Assembly (NCBI RefSeq): GCF_026151205.1 | Contig: NC_087077.1 | Location: 18,336,475-18,400,474 of the forward strand | Length of the DNA: 64,000 bases | DNA from: Bolinopsis microptera | Lineage: Eukaryota > Ctenophora > Tentaculata > Lobata > Bolinopsidae | Direction: 5' to 3' | Shown here: one piece after another, positions 760 through 56,452 of the stretch | How positions within the stretch are numbered: the first letter of the stretch is position 1 | Layout: each line of letters begins with the position of its first letter | Notes under the pieces: model-generated | The model's database searches: none | What the model was told of the DNA's origin: nothing | What the model saw: the letters and a program-made list of their open reading frames with translations, nothing else | Position numbers and translations under genes: made by a program

Positions 760-3700
760 TGATGATTGCGTTTGCATGAAACTTTAAGTTTGTAGAATCG
801 TTGTTTTTCTTGTACAACACTCCCCTCCCGGGTAGAGCACTCTTGAAACTGGATTTCTCCAAACAAGCATCATAGAGATATGTATATATATATATATTAC
901 ATATTATATAATATACATAATATGTATAAGTTATGTATAAAAATTATATACATATTTAAATAATTATAGACTATAAAAGTAGATATAAGTTGAATGGGTC
1001 TGATTCGATTGGGTAATTGAAGTTAACATGATTTGAAGCGCTTACCTGTTTGCTATAGTAAACTTAATTACCACTCTAATTAAGCGCTTACTTGTTTGCT
1101 ATAGTAAACTTAATTACCACTCTAATTAAGCGCTTACCTGTTTGCTATAGTAAACTTAATTACCACTCTAATTAAGCGCTTACTTGTTTGCTATAGTAAA
1201 CTTAATTACCACTCTAATTAAGCGCTTACCTGTTTGCTATAGTAAACTTAATTACCACTCTAATTAAGCGCTTACTTGTTTGCTATAGTAAACTTAATTA
1301 CCACTCTAATTAAGCGCTTACCTGTTTGCTATAGTAAACTTAATTACCACTCTAATTAAGCGCTTACTTGTTTGCTATAGTAAACTTAATTACCAATCTA
1401 ATTAAGCGCTTACCTGTTTGCTATAGTAAACTTAATTACCACTCTAAGAGTAAGAATGACCGCTGCTGCTATCAGTAGGAAGGTAGTACACTGAAAAATT
1501 TAAAATTATCTAGAATGGAATAGTTTGGTTAATGTTCTAATGGAATAGTAGTCTCCCAGCATAACAAAAAACCTTACCTTGCTTGATAAAATCAAAGCGA
1601 CCTTGAAGTCTTACACTAGCCTCACAAGAAAACAATTTGAAACGGGAAACCGGAGCAAGTTCACCAGTAATTTAAGTAGAGCATCAATCCAACCCCCTTC
1701 ATCCACGGACAACTCACGTAATAAACAAACCGCACTCTGATAGCAATGTAGGTTCCTAACTCACGTAATAAACAAGCCGCACTCTGATAGCAATGTAGGT
1801 TCCTAACTCACGTAATAAACAAGCCGTACTCTGATAGCAATGTAGGTTCCTAACTCACGTAATAAACAAGCCGCACTCTGATAGCAATGTAGGTTCCTAA
1901 CTCACGTAATAAACAATCCGCACTCTGATAGCAATGTAGGTTCCTAACTCACGTAATAAACAAGCCGCACTCTGATAGCAATGTAGGTTCCTAACTCACG
2001 TAATAAACAAGCCGCTCTCTGATAGCAATGTAGGTTCCTAACTCACGTAATAAACAAGCCGCACTCTGATAGCAATGTAGGTTCCTAACTCACGTAATAA
2101 ACAAGCCGCACTCTGATAGCAATGTAGGTTCCTAACTCACATAATAAACAAACCGCACTCTGATAGCAATGTAGGTTCCTAACTCACGTAATAAACAAGC
2201 CGCACTCTGATAGCAATGTAGGTTCCTAACTCACGTAATAAACAAGCCGCTCTCTGATAGCAATGTAGGTTCCTAACTCACGTAATAAACAAGCCGCACT
2301 CTGATAGCAATGTAGGTTCCTAACTCACGTAATAAACAAGCCGCACTCTGATAGCAATGTAGGTTCCTAACTCACGTAATAAACAAGCCGCACTCTGATA
2401 GCAATGTAGGTTCCTAACTCACATAATAAACAAACCGCACTCTGATAGCAATGTAGGTTCCTAACTCACGTAATAAACAAGCCGCACTCTGATAGCAATG
2501 TAGGTTCCTAACTCACGTAATAAACAAGCCGCACTCTGATAGCAATGTAGGTTCCTAACTCACGTAATAAACAATCCGCACTCTGATAGCAATGTAGGTT
2601 CCTAACTCACGTAATAAACAAGCCGCACTCTGATAGCAATGTAGGTTCCTAACTCACGTAATAAACAAACCGCACTCTGATAGCAATATAGGTTCCTAAC
2701 TCACGTAATAAACAAGCCGCTCTCTGATAGCAATGTAGGTTCCTAACTCACGTAATAAACAAGCCGCACTCTGATAGCAATGTAGGTTCCTAACTCACGT
2801 AATAAACAAGCCGCTCTCTGATAGCAATGTAGGTTCCTAACTCACGTAATAAACAAGCCGCACTCTGATAGCAATGTAGGTTCCTAACTCACGTAATAAA
2901 CAAGCCGCACTCTGATAGCAATGTAGGTTCCTAACTCACGTAATAAACAAACCGCACTCTGATAGCAATGTAGGTTCCTAACTCACGTAATAAACAAGCC
3001 GCTCTCTGATAGCAATGTAGGTTCCTAACTCACGTAATAAACAAGCCGCTCTCTGATAGCAATGTAGGTTCCTAACTCACGTAATAAACAAGCCGCACTC
3101 TGATAGCAATGTAGGTTCCTAACTCACGTAATAAACAAGCCGCACTCTGATAGCAATGTAGGTTCCTAACTCACGTAATAAACAAGCCACTCTCTGATAG
3201 CAATGTAGGTTCCTAACTCACGTAATAAACAAGCCGCACTCTGATAGCAATGTAGGTTCCTAACTCACGTAATAAACAAGCCGCACTCTGATAGCAATGT
3301 AGGTTCCTAACTCACGTAATAAACAAGCCGCACTCTGATAGCAATGTAGGTTCCTAACTCACGTAATAAACAAGCCGCACTCTGATAGCAATGTAGGTTC
3401 CTAACTCACGTAATAAACAGGCCGCACTCTGATAGCAATGTAGGTTCCTAACTCACGTAATAAACAAACCGCACTCTGATAGCAATGTAGGTTCCTAACT
3501 CACGTAATAAACAAGCCGCACTCTGATAGCAATGTAGGTTCCTAACTCACGTAATAAACAAGCCGCACTCTGATAGCAATGTAGGTTCCTAACTCACGTA
3601 ATAAACAAGCCGCACTCTGATAGCAATGTAGGTTCCTAACTCACGTAATAAACAAGTCGCACTCTGATAGCAATGTAGGTTCCTAACTCACGTAATAAAC

Positions 3701-55700: not shown

Positions 55701-56452
55701 TGTTGGTGTGGCCCGACCGATCAGTGGTTCAACAAAATTCTACATTCAATCTGGTTCAAATAAACCGGATCGCAAATTGCCAAAGTTAGTAGTTACTAAA
55801 GTTAGTAGTTACTAAAGTTAGTAGTTACTAAAGTTACTCACGTGTTAGCTATGCAGTGAAGAAACTGTCCTCCTCTAGTGAAGCACATCCCCAGTAAGCT
55901 CGATGCTGAAAACACCTGTCAGACCCATACTTGTGAGTTTGGTCAATAAAAAGCTGAGCCAACAAGCTTACTTCATGTAAACGATAAGGATTATTTTATC
56001 ATCTTTAGTCACTAAATAGTTAAACATTTCCAATAATCATGTTTCATATAAATGGAGCACGAACCCAGTATAGTGATATCATAACCAAAGTGGGTTGACG
56101 AAGTACAGAGCCCTCGCCTACTCTGGAGTGTCGTGAGAATTCCCGTATCCATACAAATGTGGTGATAAAAAAGAGCACCAACCCCGTGCCTACTAACCAC
56201 CAGTACTCTGGAGGTGCATCTGAAACACAGAAAATAATAAATCTAGTGAATTGTTAGTTATAGTTCTATAATGAGATTTGAATAGATTGTAATCATGTTT
56301 TTAAGCGAATGTCAGTATTAACCTGCTCGAAGCTGGGTAATAATGAGATTTGAATAGATTGTAATCATGTTTTTAAGCGAATGTCACTATTAACCTGCTC
56401 GAAGCTGGGTAACAGTCGGAGAACCAATGTCGTAGTCAGCACACGCATTCAT
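49797..56452 (-). CDS. SLC51A: Organic solute transporter alpha-like (OSTalpha)
   Basis: Seven exons on the minus strand: 56395-56452, 56086-56219, 55842-55915, 51693-51755, 51384-51473, 50226-50578 and 49797-49996, total 972 nt or about 323 residues (vertebrate OSTalpha is about 340). Phases join at every junction. The family is shown by a short N-terminus with a Cys and a TQLR motif, TM1 (WWLVGTGLVLFFITTFVWI), PTL then TM2, YEGLCCIAFF in TM3, the cysteine-rich CCCFPCLP at 127-134 that is the OSTalpha/TMEM184 hallmark, VNLRRLRLL.IIQ, a further TM region (IWPVVIVLRV), LKPYKCIKKFFAFKV and a last TM (WCNYVTILVALCLQLV) before an acidic tail. In vertebrates OSTalpha with OSTbeta exports bile acids and steroids across the basolateral membrane; the substrate here is unknown. 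The donor of exon 2 (TTG before GTTATG) is weak, so that boundary is tentative. The ATG directly follows a TAG and may start in or just after a 5' UTR exon. Exon ends 1 and 5 are tandemly duplicated. Confidence 0.85.
50013..50096. repeat. 10-bp repeat upstream of last OSTalpha acceptor
   Basis: Eight copies of a decamer; in gene orientation TTGAGACTAA, with TTGAGACTCA variants. It ends about 15 bp from the acceptor at 49997. Each ACTAAT/ACTAAC could act as a branch point, so the array multiplies candidate branch sites. Confidence 0.85.
51001..51430. repeat. 58-59-bp minisatellite of exon end plus donor
   Basis: Seven tandem copies. On the minus strand each unit holds the last 43 nt of OSTalpha exon 5 (which encodes CCCFPCLPAIKNSK), the donor GTAAGC and about 9 nt of intron. 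The copy with the donor at 51378-51383 is continuous with the coding exon. Periods are 59 bp at the distal end and 58 bp near the exon. Confidence 0.95.
52296..53758 (-). CDS. Secreted saposin-like protein
   Basis: Five exons, 53594-53758, 53354-53476, 53143-53247, 52870-52955 and 52296-52464, give 215 residues with consistent phases. Residues 1-16 (MVRGFVLLAVLGCASA) are a signal peptide. Residues 20-55 form a saposin A-type domain (CHEGPAYWCSSTEVAESCQA). Residues 67-140 form a saposin B domain with the classical six cysteines (67, 70, 98, 109, 134, 140). A second, more divergent six-cysteine unit follows (155, 158, 180, 189, 209, 215), ending EEMEMC. Proteins of this type act in lysosomes or are secreted and bind or perturb lipids; this one has only two B-type units, unlike the four of vertebrate prosaposin. 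The donor of exon 2 (AAG before GTTTTC) is weak. The gene lies wholly within an intron of the OSTalpha gene, on the same strand. Confidence 0.88.
52505..52790. repeat. ~150-bp intronic tandem duplication
   Basis: The blocks 52520-52605 and 52674-52760 repeat ATCATTTATGAAATATCTAA, ATGATGT.AATGCAACATATA, then GGGATTGA and AATTGCAATTGA. The duplication lies in the last intron of the saposin-like gene. Confidence 0.8.
54540..54805 (-). other. Candidate exon, unidentified
   Basis: An open stretch on the minus strand contains two NFTQ sequons (ANFTQVRCDNFTQCFHLGCN), a short cysteine cluster, a hydrophobic run CTVVIVIVISIRTLATIY and then a donor-like CAG/GTGAGG. This has the look of an ectodomain end plus membrane anchor, but there is no ATG start, no defined acceptor and no family I recognise. 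It lies between the saposin-like gene and OSTalpha exon 3. Confidence 0.25.
55782..55836. repeat. 16-bp repeat just after OSTalpha exon 3 donor
   Basis: Three copies of a 16-mer; in gene orientation AGTAACTACTAACTTT, directly following the donor GTGAGTAAC of exon 3. The unit contains TACTAAC, the ideal branch-point sequence, placed at the wrong end of the intron. Confidence 0.85.
56269..56412. repeat. 72-bp duplication of OSTalpha exon 1 end plus donor
   Basis: Two tandem copies, 56269-56340 and 56341-56412, differing at one or two bases. Each includes the last ~20 nt of exon 1 (in gene orientation TTACCCAGCTTCGAGCAG), the donor GTTAAT and about 50 nt of intron. The copy at 56395 is joined to the rest of the exon. 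Confidence 0.92.

Follow-up and report, generated by a model that had tools for sequence, protein, structure and literature searches.

Minisatellites that span exon ends and splice donors in two genes of the ctenophore Bolinopsis microptera resemble the mirages of amphioxus

Results

Four arrays repeat an exon end together with its splice donor

Four tandem arrays (A1–A4; Table 1), two in a receptor gene and two in an OSTalpha gene, each start within a coding exon, span the 5' splice donor and extend into the intron. Judged by their sequence, they show the testable features of mirages, a kind of minisatellite already known from amphioxus, and this kind of repeat may be unusually common in the genome examined here. 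We consider it somewhat more likely than not that they are minisatellites of the mirage type, in which an exon–intron boundary was duplicated and later expanded, and that their bias toward donors comes mainly from survival.

Both genes lie on the minus strand of the window, which is the whole stretch of 64,000 nucleotides that was analysed (C6:18336475-18400474). The frame of the receptor gene is open through eight exons, of which the first six belong to the window and the last two to flank L017, and its model matches PF00001 over residues 110–335 (E=1.9e-25), a stretch that crosses the introns with A1 and A2; the gene is a full-length 7TM receptor. The OSTalpha model matches PF03619 over residues 35–290 (E=1.7e-18), crossing the A3 intron, while A4 comes after exon 1; the 3' end of exon 2 in this model was picked by eye and is uncertain. 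A codon-usage exon finder was discarded, as known receptor exons scored only 0.11 bits per codon. Splicing from the first donor yields open models that match both domains across the array-bearing introns, and the first copy of each array is the real exon end of such an open, domain-matching model.

TRF agrees with the initial annotation on the places of the four arrays and on their 69, 9, 7 and 2 copies. The shared architecture that it described, with an exon end, a donor and intron in every unit, was recovered in first copies holding 41, 34, 43 and 18 exonic nt, and the donors GTGAGT, GTAAGC, GTAAGC and GTTAAT are as read in the gene models. The receptor exons that it numbered 6 and 7 are actually exons 5 and 6, counted from the first ATG. 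Each unit consists of the local exon end with its donor and 6–54 nt of intron, and the donor is intact in all copies (69/69 in A1, 9/9 in A2, 7/7 in A3 and 2/2 in A4). In each of the four arrays an in-frame stop is met right behind the first donor (with VS, R, K and G preceding the stop). The full protein requires the first donor, because read-through past it meets this stop at once. A coding tandem repeat was rejected on the same closure of the frame. Within receptor intron 5 the array accounts for 3203 of 3423 nt, consistent with the earlier claim that these introns lengthen by copying exon ends.

The internal order of the copies, which are about 97% alike overall according to TRF, carries traces of how the arrays grew. 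Copies 3–24 and 27–48 of A1 are equal in 21 of 22 unit types, i.e., a 24-unit block is repeated, and A2 consists of two alternating unit types with CAG and CAA in turn before the donor; both patterns point to expansion in blocks. Read by eye, the unit ends have 3 bp in common in A1 (GTT) and in A4 (TTA), and 13 bp in A3, counting the partial last copy. A2 has no clean microhomology and needs a 2-nt filler.

Searches of the A1 and A3 units against the genome, in which very common words are skipped, reported no match outside the locus, and the unit of one array on contig C1 had no match beyond its own locus in the same kind of search. Derivation of the arrays from the local exon end is supported by these comparisons of sequence. 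A dispersed repeat or transposon as the source of the units is unsupported for A1, A3 and the C1 array.

Table 1. Arrays and exons of the receptor and OSTalpha genes (positions in the window unless marked L017)
Feature	Position	Strand	Description
A1	1711..4956	-	TRF 47 bp x 69.1; last 41 nt of receptor exon 5 + GTGAGT per unit
A2	1036..1447	-	TRF 46 bp x 9.0; unit = 34 nt end of receptor exon 6 + GTAAGC + 6 nt
A3	51007..51427	-	TRF 58 bp x 7.2; last 43 nt of OSTalpha exon 5 + GTAAGC + 9 nt per unit
A4	56268..56412	-	TRF 72 bp x 2.0; unit = 18 nt end of OSTalpha exon 1 + GTTAAT + 48 nt
16 bp x 3.4 array	55782..55836	-	OSTalpha intron 3, from intron base 6; overlaps last base of donor GTGAGT; no exon copy
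Array near donor	L017:9094-9857		Starts at intron base 17; no exon copy
20 bp x 8.2 array	5996..6159	-	Within receptor intron 3; no splice site covered (counter-example)
10 bp x 8 array	50015..50094	-	Within OSTalpha intron 6; no splice site covered (counter-example)
Two AT-rich arrays	121-191 and 887-928		Neither at donor nor at acceptor
Further array	L017:9057-9090		Neither at donor nor at acceptor
Receptor exons 1-4	6912-6843, 6691-6597, 6400-6246, 5965-5813 (span 5813..6912)	-	Open gene model
Receptor exon 5	4914..5073	-	Last 41 nt = first A1 copy
Receptor exon 6	1414..1490	-	Open model, PF00001 match
Receptor exons 7 and 8	L017 9945-9874 and 8887-8657 (outside window)	-	Open gene model
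OSTalpha exon 5	51384..51473	-	PF03619 gene model
OSTalpha exon 1	56395..56452	-	PF03619 gene model

Four of 11 arrays in the two genes span a donor

Once overlapping rows were merged, TRF gave 11 arrays across both gene models. These could be sorted into four that span a donor, two that start at most 20 nt after a donor without an exon copy, and five that do neither; none of the 11 spans an acceptor. When the four long units were scattered randomly over the unique sequence of both genes, all four spanned donors in a share of 1e-5 of 200,000 draws. This figure was obtained post hoc, covers four of the 11 arrays and was computed with a version of receptor exon 7 since corrected.

Tandem donor motifs are in excess genome-wide

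Runs of three exact motif copies in tandem, at periods of 26–56, were counted over the whole assembly (264.65 Mb, 232 contigs); the counts are hits rather than arrays, so long arrays weigh more. Three tandem copies of AGGTRAGT were found 2884 times (1414+1470) versus 214 times (100+114) for the reversed motif, a 13.5-fold excess, whereas single sites outside arrays were about as frequent as their reversal (13 vs 16 in 257 kb). The corresponding tandem counts were 21332 vs 10705 for HGTRAGT (2.0-fold; singles 217 vs 238) and 596 vs 161 for the acceptor-like TTTTCAGR (3.7-fold). Single TTTTCAGR sites were themselves more frequent than their reversal (61 vs 28 in 257 kb, compared with 13 for AGGTRAGT), which leaves a tandem excess of about 1.7-fold. 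At the level of motifs, these counts support a recurrence of putative donor arrays across the genome.

Among the matches listed of the 2884, the AGGTRAGT triplets formed 6 clusters in the first 2.51 Mb of C1, a sample that starts near a contig end and may be atypical, and the TTTTCAGR triplets listed of the 596 formed 11 clusters over 59.8 Mb. Two of the six listed units, near 401 and 429 kb of C1, can be read as PQI[HQ]C before the donor and differ in their intron parts, a hint that these may be related exon ends.

A 200-kb block of contig C1 shows no excess

The initial annotation suggested a recurring process, or selection that multiplies donors. The genome-wide excess of tandem donor motifs speaks for recurrence, but a 200-kb block of C1 does not bear it out. 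Among array units with a period of at least 15 (64 in the block, shorter ones being dropped), a donor-like site scoring at least 6 was present in 12 of 64 versus 11.3 in random windows, and one at score 8 in 5 versus 3.6. Exon-like segments ending at the donor of the first unit were then scored, using splice-site matrices generic for metazoans, in arrays that combined a period of at least 15 with 75% matches; the block held 59 of these and the window with its flanks 29. The block yielded 10 such segments versus 11.0 for randomly placed arrays at T=12 and 2 versus 4.2 at T=18, while the window with its flanks yielded 5 versus 2.9 and 2 versus 0.47, respectively. On the acceptor side, the block gave 9 versus 12.8 at T=12 and 3 versus 5.0 at T=18, and the window with its flanks gave 5 versus 2.65 at T=12, but 0 versus 0.55 at T=18. 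If a few arrays in every hundred were donor-born, about 3 would be expected among 64, which would fall below the resolution of the block tests.

The block also contains a 20-bp GGGGTRAGT array (66597-67258) with the look of a donor-born one; its likeness to a nearby donor scored 23, a value equalled by other stretches bearing GTAAGT.

Discussion

Proposed duplication at the boundary followed by survival

Under the favoured explanation, a short tandem duplication across the exon–intron boundary would have been produced by replication slippage or microhomology repair, and the array would have grown afterwards by unequal exchange or block copying. The acceptor, the exon and the original donor would remain unchanged and all extra copies would fall into the intron; such arrays would be tolerated because the first copy keeps the exon and its donor intact. 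The first donor is most likely the one spliced, because use of a copy further downstream would introduce in-frame stops. Donors would outnumber acceptors mainly through survival, as an acceptor that has been duplicated should be more prone to mis-splicing: when a donor is duplicated the functional copy stays in place, and when an acceptor is duplicated new AGs come to lie ahead of the real one. Three observations stand against this explanation, namely the lack of an excess in the 200-kb block, the acceptor scores above random at T=12 in the window and its flanks, and the lack of clean microhomology in A2. In addition, passages of PMC3087553 place amphioxus mirages at both boundaries, which survival bias alone does not predict.

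Donors may instead be mutational hotspots, where R-loops, pausing or breaks at transcribed exon ends seed duplications and survival plays a minor role. This seems unlikely, even though tandem donor motifs far exceed their reversed control and acceptor-like motifs do so only mildly, and six of the 11 arrays of both genes are found where an intron begins, including two that lack an exon copy. A hotspot fits poorly with the unremarkable 200-kb block; moreover, survival would yield equal counts, which address birth rates only indirectly. Survival is preferred here because duplicated acceptors would place further AGs before the real one, an argument that comes from known splicing and not from a result of this analysis.

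Many of the donor-bearing arrays elsewhere in the genome could represent new introns, each formed by an exon-internal AG|GT array that is spliced from its first GT to its last AG. Such an origin would agree with AG|GTRAGT being the motif of largest fold excess, and tandem duplication of AGGT is described as an accepted route of intron gain in passages of PMC3443670. It is nevertheless distinctly improbable, since the four arrays of the window run into ordinary intron that ends in a distinct acceptor, the GT of A1 and A3 lacks a preceding AG, and donors preceded by bases other than G are in excess too. For A1–A4 themselves, intron gain through AGGT duplication was rejected, as none is an exon-internal array with its own AG serving as acceptor.

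It is harder still to credit that the extra donors are selected, for example because more U1 binding aids exon recognition or shields the intron from early polyadenylation. The intactness of every donor copy and the larger fold excess of the strongest consensus (13.5-fold for AGGTRAGT vs 2.0-fold for HGTRAGT) would agree with selection. However, intact donors are expected without it among copies so nearly identical, and the fold excess varies with motif length because longer motifs have less chance background. Least probable is that a striking window was merely picked from a repeat-rich genome with no general process behind it, for despite the ordinary 200-kb block the whole-genome counts do not depend on the choice of window, and as single sites the motif and its reversed form have similar frequencies.

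A possible general source of intron growth

The wider proposal that exon 3' ends generally act as a nursery for minisatellites, with perhaps hundreds of independent donor-seeded arrays, far more than at acceptors, and with introns growing from their 5' ends, is put forward tentatively. If true, intron lengthening in this genome would be donor-polarised and genome-wide, whereas the literature found describes only single amphioxus genes. If the genome-wide excess lay at real exon ends, intron growth would follow a polarised process that can be counted, and the mirages of amphioxus would be present in a distant animal phylum as well. Sets of 2 to 69 near-identical competing donors would then form a natural series within one genome, in which the choice of the spliceosome among equal 5' splice sites would be directly testable.

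Comparison with known systems

Canestro 2002 is reportedly the original Adh mirage paper, and a 2007 PNAS study is said to describe human introns that arose from tandem arrays. A literature search on minisatellites and introns in ctenophores found, among the papers listed, no report of repeats like those described here.

Tandem duplication as a source of introns is reviewed in PMC3443670. The AGGT intron gain presented in passages of that review is similar to the arrays of the window in that coding DNA and a splice motif are tandemly duplicated together. There, however, a new intron appears inside an exon, while the arrays of the window multiply the donor of an intron already present, and this intron becomes longer. 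Internal repeats of human segmental duplications, as outlined in parts of PMC2812944, are likewise variable minisatellites, some of them at exon–intron boundaries. Unlike A1–A4, which cannot be coding, they belong to recent paralogs and are often coding repeats.

The closest relationship is with the mirages of amphioxus, minisatellites that duplicate exon–intron boundaries and that passages of PMC3087553 and PMC3902484 report from Adh3, the globins BflGb6 and BflGb9 and troponin C, with similar repeats in PGBD5. As in those genes, the tandem units of four of the 11 arrays span an exon–intron boundary and copy its splice signals. In BflGb9, as in the window, the 3' boundary of an exon is duplicated. 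The block-wise homogenisation of mirages also has its counterpart in the repeated unit types of A1 and the alternation in A2. The sections of these papers that describe mirages report correct splicing, undisturbed by RT-PCR in PMC3087553, together with instability, whereas the present arrays are known from the DNA of one haploid assembly, where the open spliced models lend indirect support to normal splicing. Amphioxus mirages copy both boundaries according to the same sections and the arrays of the window copy donor boundaries only, and BflGb6 is described with 3 and 6 copies in two haplotypes, as opposed to up to 69 copies here, in a host of another phylum.

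Donor-bearing arrays and the receptor gene

Two tandem arrays with donor-bearing units lie on contig C1 of the assembly, at about 401 kb and 429 kb with 27 kb between them, and have units of 34 bp and 54 bp. On the exon side the units of both arrays are similar and can be translated as PQI[HQ]C; on the intron side they differ. Beside the window, the intron following receptor exon 7 holds an array that begins past the donor and includes no copy of the exon (Table). In receptor intron 6, at about window 405-530, an inverted repeat composed of ATATTTTATATGGGGTTTGTTTATC and its complement was spotted by eye. 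A relative of the receptor at C6:2675596-2676225 (27% identity) has a single open frame of 373 aa, and its matched part apparently lacks introns.

Nested gene, mobile elements and simple repeats

OSTalpha intron 3 contains a saposin-like gene on the same strand as its host. The two long reverse-transcriptase ORFs of the window probably represent LINE-type elements. Both hexamer arrays, which are internal, have a telomere-like sequence.

Table. Coordinates of features in the window and its flank (L017)
Feature	Position	Strand	Remarks
Array, 38 bp x 21.5	L017:9094-9857		begins 17 nt past exon 7 donor
Saposin-like gene	52299-53760	-	SapA (E=7e-11), SapB_2 (E=6.1e-8)
Reverse-transcriptase ORF 1	41003-43993	+	PF00078, endonuclease domains
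Reverse-transcriptase ORF 2	44158-46179	+	PF00078
CCCTAA x16	13309-13404		
ACCCTG x34.7	63793-64000		
(GT)n run	38654-39170		517 bp, 99% perfect
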